From the NCBI RefSeq assembly GCF_026898155.1, contig NZ_CP114029.1, positions 813,501 through 877,500 on the forward strand: a stretch of DNA of 64,000 nt, written 5' to 3'. Origin of the DNA: Jiella pelagia (lineage in GTDB: Bacteria; Pseudomonadota; Alphaproteobacteria; Rhizobiales; Rhizobiaceae). Below the pieces are notes generated by a model. The model was not told the DNA's origin and made no database searches. It worked only from the letters and a program-made list of their open reading frames with translations. A program made the position numbers and the translations under genes. This document shows positions 18,671 to 22,542 of the stretch, in pieces; positions within the stretch are counted from its first letter, which is position 1; each line of letters starts with the position of its first letter.

Positions 18671-19787
18671 ATGGATGCTCCCGTCCCGAAGAACCTGACC
18701 GTCGGCCCCGTTCCCACCGGCTACTACCGCTGGGAGCCGGAGGAGGACGACGTCCTGATCTGCCGCGCGGTGCGCGAGGAGACCCATGACGTCAAGACCT
18801 TCGTCTTCGCGCCGCGGCACCGGCGGCAGTTCGAATTCGTCTCCGGCCAGTTCCTGACTTTCGAATTCGAGATCGGCGGCGAGATCATCCATCGCTGCTA
18901 CACCATCTCCTCGCCGCCGACCCGGCCGGACACCGTCGCCATCACGGTGAAGCGCGTGCCGGGCGGGCCGGTGTCGAACTGGCTGCACGACGAGTTCCAG
19001 CCCGGCATGATGCTGAAGGCGACCATTCCGATGGGCGTCTTCTCCTGGTCGGGCATGCAGGCGACGAAGTATCTCTTCATCTCCGGTGGCTCGGGCATCA
19101 CGCCGATGATGTCGATGACCAGAGCCTCCTTCGACCTGGCGCTCATCTCCGACATCGCCTTCGTCCATGCGGCGCGCTCGCCGGCCGACATCGTCTTTCG
19201 CGACGAGCCTCGACTTCATGGCGAAGCGCAACCGCTCGATCCGCCCGACCTTCATCATAGAGGACGACGCGGCCAGGGAGACCTGGAGCGGCTATCGCGG
19301 CCGCATCGACGGGGCGAAGCTGGCCATGATCTGCCCGGACTTCCGCGACCGCACCGTCTTCGTCTGCGGCCCGGCGCCCTTCATGCGGGCGGTGAAGACC
19401 ACCCTGAAGGAAGCCGGCTTCGACATGAGCCGCTACCATCAGGAGAGCTTCAACTTCGACGACTTCACCGAGGAAGCCCAGGACAAGATCACCGATGCGA
19501 CGGAGGAGATCGATTCCGGCGTCCGGGTGTTCCAGCTGGAGTTTGCCAAGACCGGCCGCACCATCGAATGCCCGGAGGGGATGACGGTGCTGGAAGCCGC
19601 CCGCCGCGCCGGCATGCGCCTGCCCTCTTCCTGCTCCAAGGGCCTCTGCGGCACGTGCAAGTCGAAGCTGACCTCGGGCTCGGTGGAGATGAAGCACGGC
19701 GGCGGCATCCGGCAAAGGGAGATCGACGCCGGCATGGCGCTGCTGTGTTGTTCGCGGCCGAGGACGGATCTGGTGATCGAGCGGTGA
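18671..19787 (+). CDS. gbcB: Glycine betaine monooxygenase, reductase subunit (one +1 break)
   Basis: Electron-transfer partner of GbcA. It has a ferredoxin-reductase-type FAD domain (HRCYTISSPP, about 76-85), an NAD(P) domain (ISGGSGITPMMSM; VFVCGPAPFM) and a C-terminal plant-type 2Fe-2S domain (CSKGLCGTC...CC). The extra base is in GAGCCTC at 19205-19211. Without it the junction reads VFRDELDFMAKRNRS and the protein is 371 residues, normal for the family. The ribosome binding site AAGGGG precedes the ATG. Confidence 0.9.
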
Positions 19788-19848
19788 GTTCGGGGCGGGC
19801 GTCGTGGTGATGGGAATGCCGGCAAGGCAACGTGAGGCATAAGACACC

Positions 19849-20232
19849 ATGGGAGGCTGGGTCTACATCATGGCATCCCAGCGGAACGGAACGCTCTATG
19901 TCGGCGTAACCTCCGACCTTCACCGCCGCGTTCTGGAACATCGCGAAGGCGATCTCCGCGGGTTCACCGCGCGCTACGGCTGCAAGACGCTGGTGTGGCA
20001 CGAGCGGCACGACGACATCGAAAGCGCCATCCAGCGCGAGACGTCGATCAAGCGCTATCGGCGGGACTGGAAGCTGCGGCTGGTCGAGGAGTTGAACCCG
20101 CAGTGGCTGGATCTGTTCGAGCGGTTTTCGGACGAGGACAATCCTTTCAGGCCGTCCTTCGCCAGGGTGCTCGACGATTTTACGCCAGAACCCGACGCTC
20201 CCCTGGATTCTCGGGACGGGGCCCGAGAATGA
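19849..20232 (+). CDS. GIY-YIG nuclease domain protein
   Basis: A 127-residue single-domain GIY-YIG protein. The GIY-YIG strands are VYIMAS (5-10) and LYVGVT (16-21). The catalytic arginine is in SDLHRRVLEH, and RETSIKRYRRDWKLRLVE supplies the rest of the fold with the metal-binding glutamate. Small members of this class are common in alphaproteobacteria and their role is unknown. It interrupts the betaine cluster between gbcB and dgcA. Its last 10 or so codons lie inside a 36-bp palindromic repeat, which also supplies the stop codon; an inverted exact copy lies 80 bp downstream. Confidence 0.85.
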   Translation: MGGWVYIMASQRNGTLYVGVTSDLHRRVLEHREGDLRGFTARYGCKTLVWHERHDDIESAIQRETSIKRYRRDWKLRLVEELNPQWLDLFERFSDEDNPFRPSFARVLDDFTPEPDAPLDSRDGARE

Positions 20233-20235
20233 CGA
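20200..20235 (+). repeat. Palindromic 36-bp repeat, copy 1
   Basis: It contains the hairpin ATTCTCGGG-(6 nt)-CCCGAGAAT and matches copy 2 (20316-20351) exactly in inverted orientation. It overlaps the 3' end of the GIY-YIG gene. Sequences of this kind (a GTCATTCTCGGG...CCCGAGAATCCAGG core) are dispersed REP-like palindromes in many alphaproteobacterial genomes. Confidence 0.9.
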
Positions 20236-20315
20236 CCGGGATGGGGGATGGGCGCCTTCTTCTGAACCGTCGAGGCTGCCGCAAACGTTGCAGGACAGGC
20301 GACACCCTCGCAGCT

Positions 20316-20351
20316 TCGTCATTCTCGGGCCCCGTCCCGAGAATCCAGGGG
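20316..20351 (-). repeat. Palindromic 36-bp repeat, copy 2 (inverted)
   Basis: Exact reverse complement of copy 1, all 36 bases, separated from it by an 80-bp spacer. The pair forms a large inverted repeat whose arms are themselves hairpins, the architecture of a REP doublet (REPIN). Confidence 0.9.
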
Positions 20352-20487
20352 CTGACGGGCACCATCGGTCGATGCTTGCTCTTCTCGGCAACGGCGCGTG
20401 GGCGGACGAAGAATCCGCACGAGCAGAAACCTCGCTACCGCGACGCCATCGACCCGCACCAACCATGACGCAGGAGAGCCCTCACCC

Positions 20488-22542
20488 ATGATCGCCAATG
20501 CCGAAGCTCTCCTCAAGCCCCTGACCATCAAGGGCCTCACCATCCGCAATCGGGTGATGTCGACGAGCCATGCGCCGTCCTACGGCAAGGATGGCAAGCC
20601 GCAGGAGCGCTATCAACTCTATCATGAGGAGAAGGCCAAGGGCGGCATCGGGCTGACGATGTTCGGCGGATCGTCCTCGGTGTCGATCGACAGCCCGGCG
20701 GCACCGTGGAACCAGATTTCCGTGGCGGATGACTCAGTCGTGCCGTTCTTCCGGGAGTTCTCGGAGCGCATCCACAAGCATGGCGCGAAGCTGATGATCC
20801 AGCTGACCCATATGGGCCGGCGCACCAAATGGGACACCGAGCACTGGCTGCCAGTGAAATCGGCGTCCGTCACCCGCGAGCCGGCGTCGCGGGCGATCTC
20901 AAAGGCTCTTGAGCAGGAGGAGATCGACCGCATCGTCGCCGACTTCGCGGCCGCCGCCCGGCGCTGCAAGGAGGGCGGGCTCGACGGCTGCGAGATTTCG
21001 GCCGCCCACGGCCATCTGGTCGACCAGTTCTGGTCACCGAACTCCAACCATCGCACCGACAAATATGGCGGCTCGCTCGAAAACCGCATGCGCTTCGGCA
21101 TCGAGGTGCTGTCGGCGATGCGCGAGGCGGTGGGCGACGACTATGTCATCGGCATGCGCATGTCCGGCGACGAGATGCTGAAGGGCGGGCTCTCCCACGA
21201 GGACTGCGTGACGATCGCGGCCGAATATGCCTCGCGCGGCCTCGTCGACTTCCTCAACATCATCGGCGGCCAGGCGCGCGACCACATCGCCCATGCGGTG
21301 TCGTTGCCCAACATGTCCTTTCCCGTCGCGCCCTTCCTGCCGCTGCCCTCGGCGATCAAGCGGGAGGTGGACGTGCCGATCTTCCACGCCCAGCGGGTCA
21401 CCGATCTTGCCACCGGCGCCCGGGCCGTCGCCGAAGGCCATGTCGACATGATCGCCATGACCAGGGCGCACATCGCCGATCCGCATCTGGTCAAGAAGCT
21501 GTCCGAGGGACGCGCCGACGACATTCGCCAGTGTGTCGGCGCCGGCTACTGCATCGACCGGATCTATGTCGGCGGCGACGCGCTCTGCATCCAGAACGCG
21601 GCGACCGGCCGCGAGGCGACGATGCCGCACGTCATCGACAAGGCGGCGGCACAAAAGACCGTCGTCGTCGTCGGCGGCGGCGTCGGCGGGCTGGAGGCGG
21701 CCCGCGTGCTGGCCGAGCGCGGCCACGCCGTGACGCTGTTCGAAAAGTCGAACCGGCTGGGCGGCCAGGTCAACGTCGCCTCCAAGGCGACCTGGCGCGA
21801 GGCGCTGTCGGGCATTCCCCGCTGGCTGATCTCGCAGGTGCAGAAGCTCGGCGTCGACATTCGCCTCGGCACTGAGGCCGGCGAAGAGGAGATCGCTGCG
21901 CTCTCGCCCGACATCGTCATCGTCGCCACCGGCGGCCTGCCGCAGAAGGGCGAGGCGAAAGGCTTCGAGCACGCGGTGACCACCTGGGACGTGTTGGAAG
22001 GCCGCTCGCAGCCTTCGGGCACGGTGCTGCTCTACGACGAGATCGGCGGCCACAACGCCGCCTCCACCGCCGAGGTGCTGGCCAAGATGGGCTGCCTCGT
22101 CGAACTCGTCACCCACGACCGGATGATCGGCGAGGAGATCGGCCCGACCAACCAGCCGGTGCACCTGCGCGAACTCTACAAGCTCGGCGTCCTGATGACG
22201 CCGAATTCCGAGCTGATCGAGATCTATCCCGAAGGCAACCGGCTGATCGCCGCGATCCGCAACACCATGACCGACGCGGAGGAAGAGCGGGTAGTGGACA
22301 GCGTCGTCGTCGACTACGGCACCCTGCCGGTGGACGGGCTGCACTTCGCGCTGAAGGACGGGGCGAAGAACCGGGGGCTGACGGACGACCACGCGATCGT
22401 CGCGGGCGCGCCGCAGCCCTTCGAGGTGAACGGGGCCGCCGCCGAGCCCGGCTACACGCTCTACCGCATCGGTGACGCGGTCGCCGGCCGCAACATCCAC
22501 GCCGCGATCTACGACGCGCTTCGCCTGTGCAAGGATTTGTGA
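20488..22542 (+). CDS. dgcA: Dimethylglycine demethylating dehydrogenase, flavin subunit (DgcA-like)
   Basis: Old-yellow-enzyme/trimethylamine-dehydrogenase family, 684 residues. It has an N-terminal FMN TIM barrel (about 1-370; AAHGHLVDQFWSP, NRTD-like substrate loop) and a C-terminal NAD/FAD-type domain starting VVVVGGGVGGLEAARVLAERG (about 392). The family's 4Fe-4S motif appears as CVGAGYCIDRIYVGGDALC. Compared with trimethylamine dehydrogenase, one of the four cysteines is alanine. Context (gbcAB upstream; dgcB and an ETF pair downstream) supports dimethylglycine to sarcosine. A stachydrine or N-methylproline demethylase is the main alternative. Confidence 0.87.
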   Translation: MIANAEALLKPLTIKGLTIRNRVMSTSHAPSYGKDGKPQERYQLYHEEKAKGGIGLTMFGGSSSVSIDSPAAPWNQISVADDSVVPFFREFSERIHKHGAKLMIQLTHMGRRTKWDTEHWLPVKSASVTREPASRAISKALEQEEIDRIVADFAAAARRCKEGGLDGCEISAAHGHLVDQFWSPNSNHRTDKYGGSLENRMRFGIEVLSAMREAVGDDYVIGMRMSGDEMLKGGLSHEDCVTIAAEYASRGLVDFLNIIGGQARDHIAHAVSLPNMSFPVAPFLPLPSAIKREVDVPIFHAQRVTDLATGARAVAEGHVDMIAMTRAHIADPHLVKKLSEGRADDIRQCVGAGYCIDRIYVGGDALCIQNAATGREATMPHVIDKAAAQKTVVVVGGGVGGLEAARVLAERGHAVTLFEKSNRLGGQVNVASKATWREALSGIPRWLISQVQKLGVDIRLGTEAGEEEIAALSPDIVIVATGGLPQKGEAKGFEHAVTTWDVLEGRSQPSGTVLLYDEIGGHNAASTAEVLAKMGCLVELVTHDRMIGEEIGPTNQPVHLRELYKLGVLMTPNSELIEIYPEGNRLIAAIRNTMTDAEEERVVDSVVVDYGTLPVDGLHFALKDGAKNRGLTDDHAIVAGAPQPFEVNGAAAEPGYTLYRIGDAVAGRNIHAAIYDALRLCKDL

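Follow-up and report, generated by a model that had tools for sequence, protein, structure and literature searches.

CGTC-tagged REP palindromes flank small GIY-YIG nuclease genes in Alphaproteobacteria and beyond

Members of a family of small GIY-YIG nuclease genes are flanked, far above background, by palindromic repeats of the CGTC REP class, often on both sides and with the CGTC tags pointing outward. One such gene lies in the 64,000-nucleotide stretch of Jiella pelagia DNA that was analysed here (the window; NZ_CP114029.1, positions 813,501 to 877,500), and the REP type beside it is the family dispersed through the J. pelagia genome. The association is strong and general across Alphaproteobacteria and beyond, and because hairpins of this class border many relatives in other bacteria, enzyme and repeat very probably work together as functional partners. 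Judging from sequence, we consider it probable that the locus pairs an Ssn-like enzyme, a GIY-YIG nuclease associated with CGTC REPs, with the palindrome cognate to it, and that the protein would act on the REP. The first-pass annotation of the window had proposed that the GIY-YIG protein may act on the palindromes beside it; the linkage of gene and REP proved to be real and general, but the window pair is atypical of the family arrangement. What it had picked up is a genuine system, met at a member that is not typical.

Table 1. Features of the GIY-YIG locus in the window (positions of the window, forward strand +)
Feature	Positions	Strand	Basis
gbcB-like oxidoreductase, upstream neighbour, frame shifted by one base	18671..19787	+	ORFs; ferredoxin-reductase-like, FAD_binding_6
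Ssn-like gene for a small GIY-YIG nuclease, 127 aa	19849..20232	+	ORF list; Pfam GIY-YIG E 3.1e-13
CGTC-tagged REP no. 1; tag is GACG at 20231-20234, directed away from GIY-YIG gene	20200..20235	-	Inverted-repeat search, folding, genome copies
Spacer, 80 bp, between REP no. 1 and REP no. 2	20236..20315		BLAST against dispersed-element consensus
CGTC-tagged REP no. 2; CGTC at 20317-20320, directed toward REP no. 1	20316..20351	+	Inverted-repeat search, folding
dgcA-like Oxidored_FMN protein, downstream neighbour	20488..22542	+	Pfam; dgcA homologue with gbcB upstream in 10/10 genus genomes

The two REPs of the window (Table 1), 36 nt each with 80 nt between them, are 100% complementary, and the positions given in the first-pass annotation hold. 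Each folds as single-stranded DNA into the hairpin described there, with a 9-bp stem and a 6-nt loop (−8.6 and −8.3 kcal/mol, z −2.56 and −2.04). REP no. 1 also supplies the last codons of the nuclease gene, as had been noted: it encodes the C-terminal PLDSRDGARE and the stop TGA (20230-20232). The ends of the 80-bp spacer are similar to the outer flanks of the dispersed REP elements of the genome (BLAST). A match of the inverted REP pair to plant MIR1883 in Rfam (window 20190-20360; 44.1 bits against a threshold of 128) was judged to be chance and was set aside; probably any long GC-rich hairpin would give it. The names gbcB and dgcA were taken from the first-pass annotation and are consistent with the FAD_binding_6 and Oxidored_FMN domains of the two neighbours. 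The gbcB-like gene, 1117 nt long, is split over two frames (ORFs 18671-19810 and 19167-19787). Since a relative (L198) is open in a single frame over this region and aligns to it with one single-base gap, the window copy contains either a one-base frameshift or an assembly error.

Residues Y17, R27, H31, E64 and N83 of the GIY-YIG protein are invariant in a 37-row alignment, with Y6 nearly so; the five invariant residues are catalytic positions of the GIY-YIG superfamily. AlphaFold modelled the protein as structured to about residue 95 (10-residue blocks at 80-94 over residues 1-90) and as disordered from residue 100 onward, including the REP-encoded end (pLDDT <50 for residues 100-127). Foldseek returned no solved fold at E ≤ 0.001, the nearest being 1zg2 (UPF0213; E 1.3e-3) and Slx1 (E 1.7e-2), and profile searches matched UPF0213-type structures (1zg2, E 1.8e-9; 1ywl, E 1.1e-5). 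Matches to NCBIfam, PHROGs and PADLOC were weak only. The dN/dS values of 0.09-0.21 among five orthologues show purifying selection on the gene.

The fusion of the 3' end of the gene to a REP, to which the first-pass annotation had drawn attention, is not general, because the proteins of many relatives stop at about residue 95, ahead of any REP; that the fusion matters is not supported. It probably arose more than once, since two other GIY-YIG genes (L163 and L183) also have REP-like translated tails, PDPRVKPEDD and PDPRIKSEDD.

Read from its tagged end, the REP is CGTC-ATTCTCGGG-CCCCGT-CCCGAGAAT-CCAG. The sections of Di Nocera 2013 (PMC3733652) drawn on here describe CGTC REPs as having a CGTC tag (TGTC is a named variant), 8-9-bp stems beginning with AT and a tail that is mostly CCA, and as being mostly inverted dimers, predominant in Alphaproteobacteria. 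The window palindrome has the CGTC tag, a stem of such length that starts with AT and a CCA-type tail; its loop of 6 nt lies outside the 4-5 nt of the super-family, loop length not being an exclusive feature (other lengths occur in some genera, according to the same sections). The REP pattern has 34 matches at ≤3 mismatches in the 5.95-Mb genome, corresponding to about 33 sites because one site matches on both strands, and the reversed pattern has 0, a number far above what chance would give. The palindrome is thus a dispersed REP, found mostly as inverted doublets: its sites form 14 inverted pairs, 99-119 bp from start to start, and five singles, at least two of them with a decayed partner. 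CGTC stands at the outer ends in all 13 dispersed pairs (one left arm has CGTC at both ends), and the interior is conserved in most. The larger dispersed repeat, about 330 bp long, is composite and has additional REP-like ends. Unlike these 13 pairs, the window pair has its tags pointing inward, and it is therefore not the dispersed doublet. The first-pass reading of it as a mobile doublet is not supported: it is an inside-out pair that consists of the downstream REP of the GIY-YIG gene and the REP of an adjoining unit. The upstream REP pair of the window gene was either lost or never present.

The linkage of small GIY-YIG genes with this palindrome class was measured in three sets of loci. 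The first comprised 159 loci with relatives of the window protein (L033-L191; 59 plus 100, taken from among the matches listed), of which 158 were placed, and perfect hairpins were defined by a stem of ≥7 and a loop of 3-9. CGTC hairpins numbered 144 in 63 kb within 200 bp of the gene (2.29/kb), compared with 21 in 365 kb at 600-2400 bp (0.058/kb), an approximately 39-fold difference in density between ≤200 bp and >600 bp. A CGTC hairpin was present within 300 bp in 70 of the 158 loci; for the control tags CTGC, GCAG and GACG the counts were 1, 5 and 4. Hairpins with the TGTC tag were also enriched at the gene (49 in 63 kb vs 12 in 365 kb), and those with GTAG slightly so (8 vs 2). When one mismatch and the tags CGTC, TGTC or CCTC were allowed, 86 of the 158 loci had a hairpin on at least one side and 43 had it on both.

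The second set was the best 80 of 589 named-collection loci, ranked by similarity to alignment A1, a choice not wholly blind because some A1 rows came from REP-bearing loci. CGTC hairpins were found within 300 bp in 54 of the 80 and on both sides in 36, at densities of 3.56 vs 0.10/kb; other tags were seen in 0 (CTGC, GTCC and CCTC), 2 (GTAG), 2 (GACG), 3 (GCAG) and 8 (TGTC) of the 80. One locus is common to the first two sets (L068, identical to L222), and without it the counts become 53/79 and 35. Records outside Alphaproteobacteria with the hairpin included, for example, Rhodanobacter, Gallionella, Undibacterium and a Nitrospinae MAG; a Planctomycetota MAG in the same set (L287) was without a CGTC hairpin near the gene. 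The third set, 26 phylum loci chosen as best matches (L298 and L305 being already in the second), had the hairpin in 16, namely 12/12 outside Alphaproteobacteria and only 4/14 inside. With the first and second sets pooled and the common locus counted twice, a CGTCAT or TGTCAT hairpin lay within 300 bp of 138 of 238 GIY-YIG genes, and the remaining 100 had none within that distance. The distances of proteins and REPs also covary, weakly and in part through shared ancestry (Mantel test, Spearman 0.16, above all 300 permutations with a maximum of 0.12). Flanking far above background across Alphaproteobacteria and beyond, an association that the first-pass annotation had suggested looking for, is observed.

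The same counts bear on whether REPs are bystanders that just insert near the gene, or serve it as terminators or mRNA stabilisers. REPs in general lie mainly on the downstream side of coding regions (Di Nocera 2013, PMC3733652, in the sections used), as such models would have it. At the GIY-YIG genes, however, hairpins within 200 bp are enriched to the same degree on either side, with 70 in 31.6 kb upstream and 74 in 31.3 kb downstream, and the enrichment is missing at other ORFs of the pooled loci (1/53 within 300 bp) and at Y1 transposase genes (0/24). This symmetry and the result for other ORFs led us to set the bystander and terminator models aside as very improbable.

We give still less credence to the idea that a Y1 (RAYT) transposase moves the CGTC REPs and that the GIY-YIG link is secondary. 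RAYTs have been proposed to move their own REPs (Nunvar 2010, in the part consulted). However, no match to Y1_Tnp (PF01797) was found in the J. pelagia genome, and matches occur in only 2 of the ten genus genomes; Y1_Tnp and REPs do not co-occur among 289 genomes (17/59 vs 52/230); and Di Nocera 2013 (PMC3733652, same sections) reported CGTC repeats as not associated with transposase genes, the class apparently being without a dedicated transposase. At Y1 loci themselves, 6 of 30 having been left out as shorter than 3000 bases, the CGTC hairpin was present in 0/24 and TGTC in 1/24. The GTAG hairpin, a positive control, was likewise found at 0/24, so the Y1 genes sampled may mostly not be RAYTs and this test shows only that CGTC is absent there. 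Y1 transposases were set aside as movers of these REPs on the lack of a genome match, of co-occurrence and of the hairpin at Y1 loci.

Presence of the gene and presence of REPs also correlate, loosely, at the level of whole genomes. Among 289 Alphaproteobacteria, a generic CGTC-REP pattern was found in 45 of the 92 that have the gene (GIY-YIG match at E ≤ 1e-15) and in 24 of the 197 that do not (odds ratio 6.9), a test at ≥1 copy that is inflated because gene-positive genomes include the REPs at the gene itself. At least 10 copies were present in 19/92 and 7/197, respectively. Within families the permutation p was 0.002 for ≥1 copy and 0.022 for ≥5 copies (31 families having both states, 97 genomes). 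Fourteen of the 197 gene-negative genomes have five or more REPs, one of them (G232) 133 copies; assemblies may break at these repeats. The outcome named in the first-pass annotation as speaking against its proposal, a palindrome equally common in genomes without the gene and unlinked to it, was thus looked for and did not hold.

REPs stand on both sides of the gene in 80 of the pooled loci. The innermost two point outward in 42 of these, only about half, while 16 have them inward and 22 have both pointing one way. REPs of outward pairs are 92-94% identical within a locus vs 70% between loci; the arms are identical in 24 of the 42, and the match stops outside at CGTC and fades inside after CCA(G). 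In outward pairs the REP unit itself is the terminal inverted repeat. Within the genus, G292, G295 and G297 have the GIY-YIG gene between two inward-facing REP pairs (with one more downstream in G295), which places outward REPs on each side, and the order in G290 is the same. The window gene has inverted REPs only on its downstream side, whereas these four orthologues have them on both.

Four GIY-YIG orthogroups (A-D) were found in ten genus genomes. Groups A, B and D each have their own palindrome types, the same across G290, G292 and G297 when compared by eye. Type-A REPs number 29, 25, 15, 99 and 29 in genomes with gene A and 0, 12, 2, 47 and 10 in those without (the 47 being in G294), which is a trend only. 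Type-B REPs number 6, 6 and 7 in the three carriers of gene B, 6 in the non-carrier G295 and 0 in six genomes. Of the five gene-C carriers, two have type-C REPs (3 and 2 copies, nearly all at the gene), and the other eight genomes have none.

The junction between gbcB and dgcA is polymorphic in the genus, whether by gain or by loss. Where the gene is present, the window has 700 bp between gbcB and dgcA, against 903 bp in G292, 1161 bp in G295, 893 bp in G297 and approximately 898 bp in G290 (BLAST coordinates). Junctions without the gene, which the first-pass annotation had suggested looking for in relatives, do exist, with gaps of 41 bp in G296, 43 bp in G293 and 139 bp in G289. The gap of 340 bp in G294 contains a REP pair and no gene, and that of 819 bp in G291 contains unrelated sequence. 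In the G290 orthologue (L066), which differs from the window protein by R32C and H51Q, the REP-encoded stop is lost by a frame shift and the frame reads on to 214 aa; this copy is possibly decaying.

These comparisons bear on whether the GIY-YIG gene and its two REPs form a full analogue of a RAYT element, a mobile element that is or once was autonomous and that would also move doublets in trans. The outward inverted pair around the gene in 42 loci, with identity ending at CGTC, is what such an element would look like, and it agrees with the genus junctions that are without the gene, one of them with only a REP pair at the same place (G294). Group C adds to this, occurring twice in G290 and, within one genus, in three or more unrelated contexts. 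However, no exact insertion point, precise boundary or target-site duplication could be read at the gbcB-dgcA junctions; synteny holds for groups A, B and D in the comparisons made; group C is almost without dispersed REPs of the type searched; and near-identical copies within a genome were found in only 1 of 15 genomes examined. That genome is G290, in which two group-C copies (L087 and L172) have different surroundings and share a REP-rich upstream region, with proteins 99% identical and approximately 756 bp in common at 91%. They are a candidate recent duplication of a gene-REP unit, which could be segmental because both copies sit near contig ends. Altogether, we regard a full RAYT analogue as somewhat less likely than not.

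A host function is a further explanation, which we regard as rather unlikely. The nuclease would police REPs or DNA uptake, cutting single-stranded REP hairpins to control recombination or transformation, and the REPs would spread otherwise. Purifying selection on the gene (the dN/dS values above) and the single syntenic place of orthologue A in five genomes are in keeping with such a role, as is the effect on natural transformation in Neisseria that is reported for Ssn. By itself it would leave unexplained the two-sided REP bracketing of the gene in many lineages and the multiple divergent GIY-YIG copies per genome (up to 10).

The reading that we prefer, an Ssn-like nuclease acting on its cognate CGTC REP, would work as follows. 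The protein would recognise its REP as a folded single strand, by the hairpin and the CGTC tag, and would nick or cut it at the replication fork, or in DNA uptake or recombination; REP-specific cleavage of single-stranded DNA appears fairly likely. Repair of the cut, or handling of the REP-gene-REP unit, may then copy REP doublets to new sites, a step to which we attach less confidence. On this view the doublets would derive from the gene-bearing unit and depend on it for movement, the relation that has been proposed between non-autonomous REPINs and RAYT units. RAYT-like mobilisation of REPs by the nuclease is plausible, and active dispersal of REPs by it is a suggestion that we make only tentatively.

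The predominant palindrome class of Alphaproteobacteria had been reported to be without a dedicated enzyme. Linkage at many more than a hundred loci now gives it a partner gene, through which the origin and function of CGTC REPs become directly testable, and joins two literatures, that on CGTC REPs and that on the recently described Ssn nucleases. Among the papers listed in a search of mostly openly licensed literature, none links GIY-YIG proteins to REPs, which, given that scope, is not evidence of absence. The results suggest that dispersal of palindromes may have two separate evolutionary origins, each with a nuclease unrelated to the other. Many genomes provide both an enzyme and its predicted target, and these could serve as tools for single-stranded DNA. 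More broadly, it is possible, though somewhat less likely than not, that CGTC REPs have in the GIY-YIG nuclease a dedicated partner across the Pseudomonadota, whose gene sits inside a REP pair and which spreads doublets, an analogue of RAYT-REPIN systems on an unrelated fold of which the Neisseria Ssn system would be one instance.

Among known systems, the window palindrome shares with the CGTC REP super-family its tag, a 9-bp stem beginning with AT, a CCA-type tail and the prevalence of inverted dimers, and differs in the length of its loop; the 2013 text does not contain 'GIY', whereas the present analysis shows a partner gene family. The UPF0213-type small GIY-YIG proteins (1zg2, 1ywl) have the same fold and size as the window protein but are distant from it (28% identity to 1zg2 in the Foldseek match).

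The likeness to RAYT-REPIN systems lies in a nuclease gene that at many loci, though in the window on the downstream side only, is flanked by inverted REPs, in dispersed inverted doublets and in a correlation of gene presence with REP number, a loose one for GIY-YIG. RAYTs diverge fast (Nunvar 2010, in part), and the GIY-YIG protein likewise outpaces the neighbouring dgcA (85-89% identity to the window in G290, G292, G295 and G297, vs 95-97%). Here the nuclease is GIY-YIG, not Y1/HUH, and the tag is CGTC, not GTAG; the parallels to RAYTs (Nunvar 2010; Bertels and Rainey 2011, both in the portions consulted) are of layout, not of fold. The first-pass annotation had seen in the locus a RAYT-REPIN layout with GIY-YIG in place of Y1. 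Outward inverted REPs at 42 of the 80 two-sided loci and dispersed doublets are in keeping with the layout; the pair that it had singled out is not the dispersed doublet.

The closest relation is to the Neisseria system. A homologue of the window protein, 57% identical over 86 aa, is encoded on two N. gonorrhoeae chromosomes, and in the one record examined (L325, NZ_CP119140.1 1880287-1884544) its gene lies among 16 CGTC-tagged ATTCCCN8GGGAAT repeats within 4.3 kb. The two records (NZ_CP119140.1 and NZ_CP119142.1), evidently chromosomes at 2.17 Mb, are filed as plasmids in PLSDB. We take the gonococcal gene to be ssn and the repeat to be its NTS. In a study of 2025 (Nat Commun), Ssn is reportedly a site-specific single-stranded nuclease of the GIY-YIG family, found in N. 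meningitidis, that binds and cuts the NTS repeat as single-stranded DNA and affects natural transformation; its homologues, accompanied by sequences that match, reportedly number in the thousands. That the pairing of a GIY-YIG gene with palindromes is a first of its kind is not supported, the Ssn family being of the same kind. The Jiella system differs in its lineage and REP sequence and is known here from sequence alone. It has in common with Ssn and NTS a small GIY-YIG nuclease with CGTC-tagged repeats: the window protein is a small single-domain GIY-YIG protein with the conserved residues and homology to the Neisseria protein, and in its genome the cognate repeat is both dispersed and adjoining the gene. 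If this account of Ssn is right, the window system would be a member of the same kind.
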